Below are positions 9,324-20,254 of a stretch of 38,723 nucleotides of DNA, piece by piece. Under the pieces are notes generated by a model. It made no database searches. It was not told the origin of the DNA and worked only from the letters and a program-made list of their open reading frames with translations. Position 1 is the first letter of the stretch, and each line of letters starts with the position of its first letter. The position numbers were made by a program, and so were the translations under genes. This DNA comes from Gammaproteobacteria bacterium (GTDB lineage: Bacteria > Pseudomonadota > Gammaproteobacteria > JAADHQ01), in contig DRJK01000038.1 in the NCBI GenBank assembly GCA_011052215.1, positions 1 to 38,723 of the forward strand, given 5' to 3'.

Positions 9324-9929
9324 ATGAAAAAGATATTTATTATGTTTGCAGTATTGGCGACCTTTTTAACTGGTGCTGCAACCGCTGCCGGCAACCAGGA
9401 GGCCGGCAAGGCCAGGTCCCGGGCCTGTGCCGGCTGTCATGGAACGGATGGAAACAGCGCCATTCCCCAAAATCCGAACCTGGCAGGCCAGGGTGCCGCC
9501 TACCTGGTAAAACAGATGAAAGAATTCAAGTCGAAGAAGCGCGATAACGCCACGATGTTCGGCATGGTTGCCGCCCTGTCTGATCAGGATATGGAAGATA
9601 TTGCGGCCTACTTTTCCGCCAACAAGGCAAAAGGTGGCAAGGCCGATGCCAGACTGGTCAAACAGGGTGAGCAGATTTACAGATCCGGCGCTGCCTCAAA
9701 GGGCTTGTCTGCCTGCATCGGCTGTCATGGCCCGACCGGCGCCGGTAATGCGGCCGCCAGGTTTCCTGCCCTGTCCGGCCAGCATAGTGAGTACACTGTC
9801 AATCAGTTAAAGGCATTCAGTACGGGCAAACGCTCCAACGATGCCGGTAAAATGATGCAGAATATCGCGGGCAAGATGAATTCCTCTGATATGCAGGCCG
9901 TGGCTGCCTATATAAGTGGTCTGAAGTGA
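9324..9929 (+). CDS. Di-haem cytochrome c4
   Basis: Periplasmic or membrane-associated two-haem cytochrome c that feeds electrons to terminal oxidases; 201 aa, the usual size. After a signal peptide (about residues 1-21) there are two homologous halves, each with a CXXCH haem site: CAGCH (35-39) and CIGCH (131-135). Methionines in MFGMV and in the MMQN/KMNSS region are candidate axial ligands. The halves share the pattern PxLxGQxxxYxxxQxKxFxxxxR. I chose the ATG at 9324 because GGAG lies 9 bases before it; the in-frame ATG at 9315 is directly on the ribosome binding site. A terminator follows. Next to engB and dsbA, as in Pseudomonas. Confidence 0.94.
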   Translation: MKKIFIMFAVLATFLTGAATAAGNQEAGKARSRACAGCHGTDGNSAIPQNPNLAGQGAAYLVKQMKEFKSKKRDNATMFGMVAALSDQDMEDIAAYFSANKAKGGKADARLVKQGEQIYRSGAASKGLSACIGCHGPTGAGNAAARFPALSGQHSEYTVNQLKAFSTGKRSNDAGKMMQNIAGKMNSSDMQAVAAYISGLK

Positions 9930-15724: not shown

Positions 15725-17728
15725 ATGGACCTGACCAGCATTCTTTGGTTTTCTGTTTTATTGCAGGTATTTGCAGCCATCATGGCATTACGCCTGATCC
15801 CCTTCACAGGGAAGGCGATAGCATGGATTATTCTCTCGATGGCATTTATCCTGATGGCATCCCGTCGTGCGATCAGTTTACTGAGGCAGGAAGGTATCGT
15901 TGATGGTGAATGGCTTACCGCCATGACCACCGAAATAGTTGCACTTGTTATCTCCCTGCTTATCGTTGTGGGCGTGTTCATGATACGTGGTGTGTTTCTG
16001 AAAAAGACCCTCGATGAAGATGAATTACGAAAACTTTCACAGGTTGTTGAACAAACCTCCAGTAGCACCATTATTACCGACCTTGAAGGCAATATTGAAT
16101 ATGTCAATCAGAAATTTACTGAAATAACCGGGTACGAGCTTGATGAAATAAAGGGCAAGCCAACCAACTTTCTTAATTCGGGTAAAACGCGCCCCGAGGT
16201 TTTTGTCAACATGTGGAAAACCATTCAGGCCGGAAGGGTCTGGATAGGCGAATTTTGTAATGAATGTAAAAATGGCACCTTGCGCTGGGAAAAGGCAAGG
16301 GTCTCACCGGTCAGGGACGGCGAGGAAAAAATTACTCATTACGTTGCTGTACTTGAGGACGTGACCGAGCAAAGGGCACAGCGTGAAGCGCTCGAATACA
16401 TGGCCATGCATGATAGCCTGACCGATTTACCGAATCGTGCCCTTTTTTATGACAGGGTTTACCAGGCCATACTGGGTGCGGAGCATAACAAAAGCTCCGT
16501 TGCCGTGCTGCTGATGGACCTTAATCATTTCAAGGTTATTAACGATACATTGGGGCACCATATTGGCGACCAGATTCTAAAAGAAGTTGCCAATCGCCTG
16601 CTCAGGACGGTAAAGACATATGATACGGTGGCCAGGATGGGCGGAGATGAATTTCTTGTCCTGCTTTCTGACGTGCAGCATGAGCAGGCATCCAGAATAG
16701 CCAAACGATTATCTGAAGCCGTGCAGGAGCCATTCGTTATTGCCGGCCATAATTTTGATATAGATATGAGTATCGGGATCGCGATGTATCCGCAAAATGG
16801 AGATGACCCGGACGTACTGATACAACGATCAGATGTGGCCATGTATTCTGCAAAATCACGGTCGACGGGTATCGCCATGTATGACCCGGATCTGGATGAC
16901 TACAGTGTCGGACGCCTTGAGTTGCTGGGTGAAGTAAGAAATGCACTGGAGGCCGAGCAGTTCTGTGTACACTACCAGCCACGCATGGATTTATTCACGA
17001 TGGAAATGGAAGGTGTGGAGGCCCTGGTTCGCTGGATGCATCCCAAACGCGGGATAATCTACCCTGATAATTTTATCCCTATCCTGGAAGAAACCGGGCA
17101 TATTACGGTACTGACCCGGTGGATAATCAAAAAGGCAATCGAACAACTTGCATTATGGAGAAACCTCAATCCCGAGTTTATCATGTCGATCAATATATCT
17201 ACCCGGGACTTGTGCGACCAGAAGCTGTCGGAATACATTGCTGAAAATCTCAAATTCTTCGATGTGCCGCCCAGTGCAATTATACTCGAGATCACGGAAA
17301 GTTCGTTGATGCAGTACTCTCGTTATACCTATTCCACAATTGATTCGCTCGATGAGCTGGGTATTAAACTGGCTATCGACGACTTTGGTACCGGCTATTC
17401 ATCCTTGCAGTACCTGAAAGTGCTGCCCGTTTCCGAACTCAAGATAGATAAATCCTTTGTCATGAACATGCTGGATGATGAAGACGATGCCGTGATTGTC
17501 CGTTCTACAATCGACCTGGGGCATAACCTGGGTCTGGATGTGGTTGCAGAAGGTGTCGAAGACGAGGAAACAAGTAAAATCCTGCAAATCCTCAATTGCA
17601 ATCATGCGCAGGGATATCATTTTTCCAAGGCCGTGGAAGAAGGCGTGATCACCAAGATGATTACCGGTGAAAACAATATTTTCAAGTTGCAGAACGAGGA
17701 AGAGATAAACAATTCACAGGTTTCCTGA
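15725..17728 (+). CDS. Membrane PAS-GGDEF-EAL c-di-GMP enzyme
   Basis: Dual-domain c-di-GMP turnover protein, 667 aa. Three membrane helices lie at the N-terminus (about 5-20, 28-48 and 65-85), then a PAS domain (about 100-215, with SSSTIITDLEGNIEYVN and NFLNSGKTRPEVF). The GGDEF domain (about 225-390) has the intact motif ARMGGDEF (306-310), but its I-site is KTYD rather than RxxD. The EAL domain (about 400-655) has EALVRW (near 432), NISTRDL, EITESS, DDFGTGYSSLQYL, KIDKSF and AEGVED, so phosphodiesterase activity is expected. The last motif is QGYHFSKAV instead of QGYxFSKP. Which activity dominates cannot be told. The ribosome binding site is weak. A 1.2 kb non-coding region follows. Confidence 0.93.
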   Translation: MDLTSILWFSVLLQVFAAIMALRLIPFTGKAIAWIILSMAFILMASRRAISLLRQEGIVDGEWLTAMTTEIVALVISLLIVVGVFMIRGVFLKKTLDEDELRKLSQVVEQTSSSTIITDLEGNIEYVNQKFTEITGYELDEIKGKPTNFLNSGKTRPEVFVNMWKTIQAGRVWIGEFCNECKNGTLRWEKARVSPVRDGEEKITHYVAVLEDVTEQRAQREALEYMAMHDSLTDLPNRALFYDRVYQAILGAEHNKSSVAVLLMDLNHFKVINDTLGHHIGDQILKEVANRLLRTVKTYDTVARMGGDEFLVLLSDVQHEQASRIAKRLSEAVQEPFVIAGHNFDIDMSIGIAMYPQNGDDPDVLIQRSDVAMYSAKSRSTGIAMYDPDLDDYSVGRLELLGEVRNALEAEQFCVHYQPRMDLFTMEMEGVEALVRWMHPKRGIIYPDNFIPILEETGHITVLTRWIIKKAIEQLALWRNLNPEFIMSINISTRDLCDQKLSEYIAENLKFFDVPPSAIILEITESSLMQYSRYTYSTIDSLDELGIKLAIDDFGTGYSSLQYLKVLPVSELKIDKSFVMNMLDDEDDAVIVRSTIDLGHNLGLDVVAEGVEDEETSKILQILNCNHAQGYHFSKAVEEGVITKMITGENNIFKLQNEEEINNSQVS

Positions 17729-18061
17729 CGGCTCTTCCATGTGGTCATTACAAATCCGGCATCCTTCCTGTGTTCTCGTGCAGTGCGTTCCAGTACCCGA
17801 CAAGAGAATGATCACCGCGTCTGTTTGCTGTGAAACCCTACAGTGACACTGCCACAGCATTTCCGGTGCAAAATACATCTATCAAGGGAATCATATGGGT
17901 GTAACCTGCAATCATCTTCCCCGTATTAAATAACAAGGGATCTCGCCCTGATTTACCTTATTATTGAATCCGTTATTTTTTTAAAAGTATCTCACTGTTT
18001 TCGCAGGAATTAATCTTCAGTCTCGTCCATATTCCAGGAATCATCCCAACAGACCCCTGAG

Positions 18062-18078
18062 TTGGCACAGCAGTTGCA
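18062..18078 (+). promoter_or_regulatory. Near-consensus sigma-54 (RpoN) promoter
   Basis: TTGGCACAGCAGTTGCA matches the -24/-12 consensus YTGGCACGrNNNTTGCW at every specified base but one. The GG (18064-18065) and GC (18076-18077) are separated by exactly 10 bases, the spacing required by sigma-54. Transcription would begin near 18089. The sequence lies outside any gene. I could not identify the enhancer-binding activator site upstream. No other match of this quality was noticed in the intergenic parts of the window. Confidence 0.7.
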
Positions 18079-18266
18079 ATCAAGCATGAAGAGTCTGCGC
18101 AGCATTGGAATGACAGACATTATAATAATATTGCGCCCCAAGGGAGAACGTTGCATCGGGTGTATAACCCTGATGTGATGCTTGTGGATATGCGCTTTGG
18201 CTGCTTGCCAGTTCTATAATCCCGATTGGGATCAGGGAGGGATTCTGACAGGGATGTTAACGCTTT

Positions 18267-18327
18267 GTGTCATAGTAATTACCCAGTGCTTCTTTTCCTC
18301 CTCTTGTGCGGGTAATTATTATGACAC
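18267..18327 (+). other. 18-bp inverted repeat with 25-base pyrimidine-rich loop
   Basis: Arms 18267-18284 and 18310-18327 pair over 18 bp with a single G-U, closing a loop (18285-18309) that contains TTTTCCTCCTCTT, complementary to Shine-Dalgarno purine tracts. A C-rich run follows directly. No T-run follows, so it is not a terminator. As DNA it could also be an operator. Confidence 0.75.
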
Positions 18328-18459
18328 CTTCCCCTCCCCCCGCTACATAGACACATCGTTTCCAGATAATTTACCCATTCCGATGCCGGTTCCATCCGGC
18401 TGAGCCGTCTGCGGCAATATAAAAAATCGGGAGACATGACAGAACAGGATTTCGCAGAA

Positions 18460-18495
18460 AACTGGAAAATTACAGTATTTTCCTGTTATTTTTTG
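18460..18495 (+). terminator. Terminator-like hairpin followed by T-run
   Basis: Arms 18460-18470 and 18477-18487 (11 bp, one mismatch) close a 6-base loop and are followed by ATTTTTT. The stem is AT-rich, so strength is doubtful. Confidence 0.5.
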
Positions 18496-18891
18496 TTTAT
18501 AAGTATATCCATGTACACTGATTTTTTTATACAGGAATTTATTTCCTGTTAATTCAAAAGCTTAAAATGCACCCTTATTTTCTGTAAATATTAATTTCCA
18601 CCCCTTGTTTTAAAGTCCTGCCGGACCCAGCCGTTAACCTGAATGTAGCAAGAATAAATGACCTCATTATGTTAATCAGCGTTTTGTAGTTGGGTCAATA
18701 AGTTGAATGGAAACCGGGCAGTTTTGTATGTTGTTGTGAAAGTCTGCATTTTAGTAGAAATCCTGATACATACTACAGCTCAATACTGGTACAACTCGAT
18801 TCAACAAGTACAGACGCTGATTAGCATAGTGGGTGACAGACCTGCTGCAAAAGATTGACTCCTCCGGCAGCGCATATAGCGCTCTGCTTTG

Positions 18892-18919
18892 ACCCAGCCT
18901 GGATTGGCTGGGTTTTTTT
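18892..18919 (+). terminator. Strong intrinsic terminator without an upstream gene
   Basis: Perfect 8-bp stem ACCCAGCC/GGCTGGGT (18892-18899 and 18906-18913), loop TGGATT, then seven T. It reads on the plus strand, whereas the adjacent reductase gene is on the minus strand and the nearest plus-strand gene ends 1.16 kb upstream. Confidence 0.85.
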
Positions 18920-18942
18920 ATTGCCGGCCCATGTAGTACTTG

Positions 18943-20088
18943 TTATGCCAGCCAATCATCCACCTGTTTGCTCAGCGCCATCTTTTCCCTGACCAGTTCA
19001 CCCGTTAAGGCAAACCCGGCAATATTGCCGTCATTATCCCTGAATAACGCACGAACACCCTCATCGGTTATCTCTTCTTCCCAGTGACCCTCTTTTGGCC
19101 TTGGTGTCGGGCAGACAACGACGGGGTAGCAGGGAGTCTTGACCACGACCGGCATGGCAGGATAACAGACCGCGGTATCCTCACCACACAGCGTCGCGGC
19201 CAGGGCGCGTGCCGAGTTCATCAATGGCATGACAAAAGGCAGGGTCAGGTCCTCTATCTGCGCACAGTCACCCAGGCCATAGATATTTTCATGACTGGTT
19301 TGCATGAAACGGTCAACCTTCAGACCACGGTCTGTCTCAATACCCGCCTCCGTTGCCAGCTCAAGGTTCGGGCGCAAGCCAATTGCCGACAGTACAATGT
19401 CAGCAGTTATTACTGTGCTGTCTTTTAGTGTCACCCGTAAACCCTCGTCACTCGTTTCGACAGAGTTCACGGCGTTATTCAGATGCCAGTTGATACCGAG
19501 TTCAGACAACTTTTCCTGCAATAGTGACGAGGCCTTTTCCGGTAGCAAGCTGCCGAGCGGCCTTGATGCCAGATCAACGACCGAGATATCCGCACCAACA
19601 GTGGATAAATCATTGGCGAATTCACAGCCGATCAAACCCGCGCCGATAATGACAACACGTTTGCCTTTTTCCAGCTCCGCGCGGAAGAGGCGGTAGTCAT
19701 CCAGGTCATTTACAGAGAGAATTTTATTGGCCGCACCACCTTTTATCGGCGCCATGATGGTATTGGCACCGTTGGCCAATACCAGCTTTGTATAGGAGGC
19801 CACGCCCTTTTCGGTGTGCAAGGCCTGGTGACGGGTATCAATCCGGTTAACCCTTGTTCTGGTCCAGATCTCTGCTGCCAGGGTTTCTGCCATTTGTTCA
19901 GCGCTGGATATCACCAGTGCATCCGGGTGTTTGTCTTTGCCAAGTGCATTGGAGAGCATGGGCTTGGAATAGGAACTGCCATCATCACGGGTTATCAGCA
20001 ATAATTCTGATTCACTGTCCCGTTTACGGATTTCACGTGCCAACGTGTAACCTGCAAGCCCGGTACCAATAATGACGAGCTTGCTCAT
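18943..20088 (-). CDS. Rubredoxin-NAD(+) reductase-like FAD protein
   Basis: Pyridine nucleotide-disulfide oxidoreductase family flavoprotein that should pass electrons from NAD(P)H to the rubredoxin encoded just upstream. It is 381 aa. The FAD-binding glycine motif is GTGLAG (8-13), the NAD(P)H motif is GAGLIG (149-154), and the second FAD contact is NIYGLGDCAQ. No redox-active CxxxxC is present, as in AlkT-type reductases. I chose the ATG at 20088, one base after the rubredoxin stop codon; a longer frame to 20229 is the rubredoxin gene read in another frame. Terminal acceptors (an alkane hydroxylase, a peroxide or superoxide reductase) are not in the window, so the physiological role remains open. 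Confidence 0.9.
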   Translation of the reverse strand: MSKLVIIGTGLAGYTLAREIRKRDSESELLLITRDDGSSYSKPMLSNALGKDKHPDALVISSAEQMAETLAAEIWTRTRVNRIDTRHQALHTEKGVASYTKLVLANGANTIMAPIKGGAANKILSVNDLDDYRLFRAELEKGKRVVIIGAGLIGCEFANDLSTVGADISVVDLASRPLGSLLPEKASSLLQEKLSELGINWHLNNAVNSVETSDEGLRVTLKDSTVITADIVLSAIGLRPNLELATEAGIETDRGLKVDRFMQTSHENIYGLGDCAQIEDLTLPFVMPLMNSARALAATLCGEDTAVCYPAMPVVVKTPCYPVVVCPTPRPKEGHWEEEITDEGVRALFRDNDGNIAGFALTGELVREKMALSKQVDDWLA

Positions 20089-20089
20089 A

Positions 20090-20254
20090 TCAGGTTTCCA
20101 ACCATTCAAAATCTGATTTTCCGACGCCACAGTCCGGGCAGATCCAGCTATCGGGGACATCTTCCCAGGCCGTCCCGGCAGAAATACCTTCATCCGGGAG
20201 GCCAAGCTCCGGATCATAAATAAAATCACAAACCAGACAACGCCATCTTTTCAT
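20090..20254 (-). CDS. Rubredoxin
   Basis: Small iron protein with one Fe(Cys)4 centre, 54 aa, the classic length. It is short enough to be missed by a length cut-off and is overlapped by a long false frame. Translation from the ATG at 20254 gives RCLVCDFIYD (Cys6, Cys9), the conserved aromatic core (Trp4, Tyr13, Trp37) and ICPDCGVGKSDFEWL (Cys39, Cys42). GGAG lies 7 bases before the start. The stop is followed after one base by the reductase start, so the two are translationally coupled. The C-terminal DFEWLE is usual for the family. Confidence 0.96.
   Translation of the reverse strand: MKRWRCLVCDFIYDPELGLPDEGISAGTAWEDVPDSWICPDCGVGKSDFEWLET

Follow-up and report, generated by a model that had tools for sequence, protein, structure and literature searches.

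Most probably, a small regulatory RNA that had not been described before is encoded in the apparently empty region of about 1.2 kb between two protein-coding genes of the DNA analyzed here (the whole stretch of 38,723 nucleotides, referred to below as the window). The conserved RNA lies at about 18643 to 18919 on the plus strand (~277 nt), directly behind a sigma-28-type promoter. The earlier note had also proposed a regulatory RNA in this gap, at 18089 to 18495; the presence of a conserved RNA gene is upheld, while its position is different. Judging from its promoters, seed, and structure, we think it probable, with reasonable rather than high confidence, that it is an intergenic, trans-acting small RNA of the flagellar regulon which represses translation at ribosome-binding sites and to which a 6S-like domain has been added in most lineages. 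A description of the RNA was sought in the open-access literature, and none was found.

A conserved RNA behind a sigma-28-type promoter

The longest open reading frame within the gap has 73 codons, which bears out the view of the earlier note that no defensible protein gene is present. With short open reading frames only, a protein gene was rejected as the content of the gap, as was a tRNA or tmRNA after a search of the region, and no Rfam family matched the window at its curated threshold. When 56 related genomes were searched at the DNA level, matches were obtained in three congeners (G001 to G003), all of them to window positions 18653 to 18924. The RNA is 71 to 77% identical in the three congeners, and the remainder of the gap is unconserved. 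When compared with shuffles, the fold of the whole window RNA had a z score of -5.3.

The sigma-28 (FliA)-type promoter, TAAAG-N14-GCCGTTAA, is located at 18611 to 18637 on the plus strand, and the four genomes of the genus all keep it with the same spacing; TAAAG-N14-GCCGATAA is the established FliA (sigma-28) promoter pattern. The pattern TMAAG-N14-GCCGWTA had a single match in the 38.7-kb window and none in 100 shuffles. From the position of this promoter we infer a transcription start near 18643. Neither the site at 18611 to 18637 nor the RNA behind it appeared in the earlier note. The genome itself (G000) encodes FliA (contig C78; 271.5 bits versus a cut-off of 189.6), and with it two marks of a FliA-dependent small RNA are present, namely, a sigma-28-type promoter directly upstream and a fliA gene in the genome.

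The RNA carries a 6S-like body (18659 to 18836), consisting of a long closing stem, a central bubble, and an apical stem. Downstream of the body is an unpaired anti-Shine-Dalgarno seed (UUGACUCCUCCG), UUGACUCCUCCGG at 18855 to 18867, followed by a small folded hairpin, GCAGCGC-AUAUA-GCGCUCUGC (18867 to 18887), and an intrinsic terminator with a run of seven U's (18891 to 18919; nine pairs in the scan, six of them G-C), all on the plus strand. The terminator shows compensatory changes within the genus. In the alignment of the congeners, made in the orientation of the RNA, the order is sigma-28 site, long paired region, UUGACUCCUCCGGCAGCGC, and terminator, and the 19 bases of the UUGACUCCUCCGGCAGCGC block show no difference among the four. 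Across 14 aligned members ACUCCUCC is invariant, and the aligned members have a hairpin at the position between the seed and the terminator. In the predicted fold of the window RNA, CUCCUCC had a mean unpaired probability of 0.88; in several other members the seed is predicted to be partly paired.

Predicted targets of the seed

The seed is complementary to GGAGGAG ribosome-binding sites. A search of ten member genomes for GGAGGAGTC-N2-10-ATG returned one to four matches in each, several of them before genes for exported proteins. A DsrE-family lipoprotein (Pfam) was picked from this search in G002 and G003, and GGAGGAGT was found at the start site of its orthologues in G000, G001, G047, G187, G069, G260, and G149; these seven orthologues had not been used in choosing the target. 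Orthologues with GGAGGAGT at the start site come from four families. The GGAGGAGT match was absent at the DsrE lipoprotein in the two f2 genomes. Duplex energies ranged between -21 and -32 kcal/mol. The DsrE site in this genome (-22.3) was among the strongest of 57 start regions but was not unique, and GGAGGAG is also simply a strong ribosome-binding site. As predicted targets we name the DsrE-family lipoprotein and other exported proteins. A periplasmic protein (DUF302-like by reading, with no Pfam match) was discarded as a general target, as its start-site match was found in a few genomes only.

Distribution of the RNA family in Gammaproteobacteria

A model built from the four congeners (R1) detected distant full-length relatives in G047, G187, G124, G260, and G158 and short versions in G271 and G004. 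A pattern scan of further genomes added a Thiogranum sp., a groundwater gammaproteobacterium, and isolate J048; matches to the pattern on four contigs (L064, L065, L067, and L068), among them contigs of Pedobacter and Nitrospira, were put down to chance and dropped for want of a convincing model score. With a second model, comprising the 3' module alone (R2), the RNA was found in 27 of the 369 genomes of the class at an E value below 1e-7, the model E values being rough and class membership being that of GTDB.

Both promoter patterns recur in the family. Within 280 bases upstream of 30 loci from 16 families, the sigma-28 pattern was found in 24 and the sigma-54 pattern in 17, compared to shuffle means of 0.05 and 0.24, respectively, and none was found on the opposite strand. 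The patterns had been fixed after the first 14 members, so that the 16 loci added later with R2 provide a fair test; there, the sigma-28 pattern was present in 11 and the sigma-54 pattern in 8. All 27 RNA-bearing genomes encode FliA, compared to 209 of the 369 genomes of the class (57%; hypergeometric, 1e-7); since the genomes are related, 27 of 27 overstates their independence, and the value becomes ~6e-4 if 13 families are taken as single events.

The common core of the family consists of the promoters, ACUCCUCC, the small hairpin, and the terminator. The 6S-like body is not part of this core, because several families have other, shorter bodies; this is the case in f80, f153, f2, and Thiogranum, where such bodies are accompanied by the same promoters and 3' module. 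L026 and L102, from two genomes of a single family, also differ from each other: one has the full 6S-like body, and in the other the body is truncated and directly continuous with the seed, possibly as the result of a recent loss.

The body of the RNA resembles 6S RNA

The 48-nt model matches obtained in many genomes were rejected as family members; wherever checked, they proved to be canonical 6S RNA, and this was the clue to the 6S-like nature of the body. The weaker R1 matches that were checked were canonical 6S RNAs, and R1 scores canonical 6S at E values of 3e-9 to 1e-5. In a covariance model built from five bodies, all from outside the genus (R3), compensatory changes on both sides were found in 16 of 55 pairs (7.1 expected; equaled in none of 500 shuffles). 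Run on the window with filters off, R3 gave 39.5 bits at 18659 to 18836, the next place in the region reaching 7.6 bits, and it scored several canonical 6S RNAs at E values of 1e-5 to 6e-3. The Rfam 6S model (RF00013) had no match in the window region up to an E value of 5. Its best member was the body of L020, the only one with a clear score, at 41.7 bits, which is under the gathering cut-off of 46.4.

With 6S RNA (SsrS, RF00013) the body shares the long hairpin, the closing stem, the central bubble, and the conserved apical stem (GUGUGCA-.UCCGC..GCGGAA..CCUGA), and on this homology of sequence and structure in closing stem, bubble, and apical stem we regard it as 6S-homologous. The RNA is not filed as RF00013, because the curated score is not reached. 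It differs from 6S RNA further in being a second copy beside the canonical 6S, in having sigma-28- and sigma-54-type promoters and its own anti-Shine-Dalgarno seed and terminator, and in the dispensability of the body across the family. Canonical 6S was found above the cut-off elsewhere in 10 of the 11 member genomes checked and was not found in the remaining one, G002, which is 79% complete.

If the RNA is a translational repressor of the flagellar regulon, as we favor, the 6S-like body would be an added domain, absent in some lineages, that probably stabilizes the RNA; by analogy with 6S, it may bind RNA polymerase. A more tentative possibility is a two-headed RNA under flagellar sigma factors, with a 6S-type domain that would target RNA polymerase and a tail that would silence mRNAs through its anti-Shine-Dalgarno sequence. 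Were this true, control of transcription and control of translation would be coupled to flagellar assembly.

It is unlikely that the RNA acts mainly as a specialized 6S, with a body that would bind the RNA polymerase holoenzyme during activity of the flagellar sigma factors and shift sigma-factor competition, and with a 3' module that is no more than a terminator whose C-rich spacer is fortuitous. The homology of the body to 6S beside a separate canonical 6S gene is in line with such a role, and so is the precedent of bacteria with two 6S RNAs, Legionella having a second one, 6S2, in a genome with the canonical one (PMC3048289); however, the invariant part of the RNA is ACUCCUCC, and f80, f153, f2, and others are without the 6S-like body yet keep the promoters and the 3' module. 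The available part of the Legionella report describes neither flagellar promoters nor an anti-Shine-Dalgarno tail for 6S2 (PMC3048289).

The distal sigma-54-like site and the 18089-18600 segment

A sigma-54 (RpoN) promoter-like site, TTGGCACAGCAGTTGCA, at 18062 to 18078 on the plus strand, with 10 bases from GG to GC, had been reported before and is confirmed from the sequence; the sigma-28-type site follows it at a distance of 548 bases. Taken alone, it is weak evidence: the 15-base pattern TGGCAY-N5-YTGC has two matches in the window versus 0.64 expected from shuffles, and two or more matches were obtained in 8 of 100 shuffles. The second match, TGGCATCGGCCTTGC (9637 to 9651, minus strand), lies inside a cytochrome c gene and is probably due to chance.

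In the congener G002, GTTGGCACGACTACTGCA occupies the equivalent position behind the EAL gene, and the order there is EAL gene, GTTGGCACGACTACTGCA, short blocks shared with the window, a 121-aa gene, and then the RNA. In G001 and G003, the 1300 bases ahead of the seed yielded no strict sigma-54 site. In relatives the distance between the sigma-54 and sigma-28 sites is about 48 bases and usually in the range of 46 to 58 (79 in L022, 66 in L102, and 151 in L026); because it is 548 bases in the window, the role of the window site is uncertain. The site may be genuine, with what is perhaps a secondary part in driving the window RNA. The proposal of sigma-54 control holds for the family to the extent that 17 of 30 loci carry the site, whereas the window RNA has its own sigma-28-type promoter and a sigma-54 site far removed from it. 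CrcZ and the Qrr RNAs, cited in the earlier note, are small RNAs controlled by sigma-54. Such control may also apply in the present family, where most relatives have a sigma-54-type site 46 to 79 bases ahead of the sigma-28 site, compared to 548 in the window; nothing in the window reaches the curated Rfam threshold of the CrcZ and Qrr families or of any other.

Behind the sigma-54 site, window positions 18062 to 18245 share the short blocks CCCCAAGGGAGA and ATGCGCTTTGGCTG with G002 (L004, reverse strand), along with a small hairpin in which a compensatory change is seen. A leader RNA or a very short open reading frame (MNPQGRVYDQLTVREYLRLCAWL in G002) may account for these blocks.

Of the hairpins that the earlier note placed downstream of the sigma-54 site, the long one is indeed there, as a near-perfect inverted repeat at 18267 to 18327 (plus strand) with 18-nt arms that are 94% complementary (z = -9.1). 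Its loop shows UUUUCCUCCUCUUGU (UUCCUCCUC; UUUUCCUCCUCUUG), a second CCUCC anti-Shine-Dalgarno element. This hairpin was not conserved in the congeners searched, and it was rejected as a repeated mobile element, being present in a single copy in the genome. The supposed terminator about 400 bases later (near 18464 to 18495) is AT rich, folds weakly (z = -2.3), and was not picked up by the terminator scan, which found 18891 to 18918 as the sole terminator on the plus strand. The DNA search of the 56 related genomes gave no matches to 18089 to 18495, and 18089 to 18600 is not conserved in the congeners save for short blocks common to G002.

These data make it quite improbable that a sigma-54-driven RNA starting at ~18089 is the functional product, with 18659 to 18919 as its 3' end or as a separate gene. 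Such an RNA would have a consensus-fitting site that recurs in G002, would meet no plus-strand terminator before 18891, and would bear the second CCUCC loop in the hairpin at 18267 to 18327, but most of its 5' part is unconserved in the congeners, in G001 and G003 a strict site was not found ahead of the RNA, and it is the proximal sigma-28 site that is invariant.

Related RNA families and gene neighborhood

A short C-rich anti-Shine-Dalgarno element followed by a hairpin and a terminator is also found in the betaproteobacterial toxic small RNA (RF02278) and anti-hemB (RF02837), which have no 6S-like body. The anti-hemB model scored 22.5 to 28.5 bits in members and 23.6 bits in the window (cut-off, 49.5), and the toxic small RNA model scored 25.5 to 29.2 bits (cut-off, 50). 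We consider it very unlikely that the RNA is a divergent member of this Burkholderia group: the 3' module does match repeatedly below threshold, and hemB lies near many members, but all scores fall at 22 to 30 bits versus cut-offs of 49.5 to 50, and in a true anti-hemB pair (L201) the C-rich seed sits in a hairpin loop, with no hemB found in the 3.1 kb covered. The L201 pair consists of two tandem anti-hemB RNAs (RF02837; 1517 to 1582 and 1716 to 1786), ~130 bases apart in one genome.

Upstream of the gap is a gene for a PAS-GGDEF-EAL protein (15725 to 17728, plus strand; Pfam). An EAL gene is also upstream in the congener G002 and does not adjoin the RNA in G001 or G003, according to the open reading frames of L002 to L004. 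On the other side lies a convergent gene for a rubredoxin/flavorubredoxin-type NAD reductase (18943 to 20229, minus strand; Pfam Pyr_redox_2 and Rbx_binding), which is kept on the far side of the RNA in G001 and G003; the G002 contig ends there. A rubredoxin reductase is also found near the RNA in L062, L003, L063, L084, L088, and L089, and the genes upstream of the RNA vary among G001 to G003. Across families, the recurring neighbors are hemB, rubredoxin reductase, a transporter that appears to be bile-acid-symporter-like, and an unnamed "...DTLG" protein, so the tie to the adjoining c-di-GMP genes that had been suggested is not general.

The ~185-aa protein ending in DTLG (L061, 2466 to 3020; homologues in L020, L022, L063, L081, L084, and L089), which is found beside the RNA in many families, had no match in an NCBIfam search. 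A protein of 121 to 122 aa (MKFxxVxxGQRF...) is encoded directly upstream of the RNA in the congeners (L002, 1965 to 2333; L003, 1948 to 2316; L004, 549 to 914) and is absent from the window; it had no match in Pfam or NCBIfam. A lost copy of this gene with recognizable remnants in the window was rejected, as tblastn found none. A perfect 51-bp tandem repeat with the unit TGTCCGCGGCATAAGTACATCCATGTACAAAGCCGCTCCTACACGTCCCTG is present at contig ends in the genome studied (L071, 1440 to 1582, on contig C72; also on contig C31).

A cis element or an mRNA end is barely credible as an alternative to a separate RNA, since, although in the genus a coding gene precedes the conserved element, it has its own conserved promoter and its own terminator, the next gene is convergent, and the upstream genes differ between genomes.

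Proposed function and significance

According to the reading that we prefer, a flagellar-regulon RNA acting in trans on ribosome-binding sites, the RNA would be made when flagellar sigma factors are active, that is, FliA in this genome and RpoN plus FliA in most relatives. UUGACUCCUCCG would then pair with ribosome-binding sites of the GGAGGAG type on selected mRNAs, and this pairing would block their translation. FliA-controlled small RNAs are known from Escherichia coli, where UhpU, MotR, FliX, and FlgO depend on sigma-28 (PMC10578931); those RNAs are derived from untranslated regions, whereas the RNA described here has an intergenic gene of its own and is unrelated to them in sequence. Campylobacter, too, has small RNAs under RpoN or FliA in its flagellar cascade, i.e., CJnc230 (RpoN) and CJnc170 (FliA) (PMC11187230) and CjNC1/CjNC4 (PMC4626219). 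These are different RNAs, and the available parts of the two reports describe none in which a single intergenic gene has both promoters and none with a 6S-like body.

The RNA family is independent and apparently undescribed. It extends over at least a dozen gammaproteobacterial families as defined by GTDB, and sigma-54 and sigma-28 sites recur in it as a pair. The combination of a domain derived from 6S with a base-pairing seed would be new as an architecture and raises the question of whether a 6S-like RNA can be specialized for alternative-sigma programs. In the bacteria that carry it, the RNA may tie swimming to gene control.
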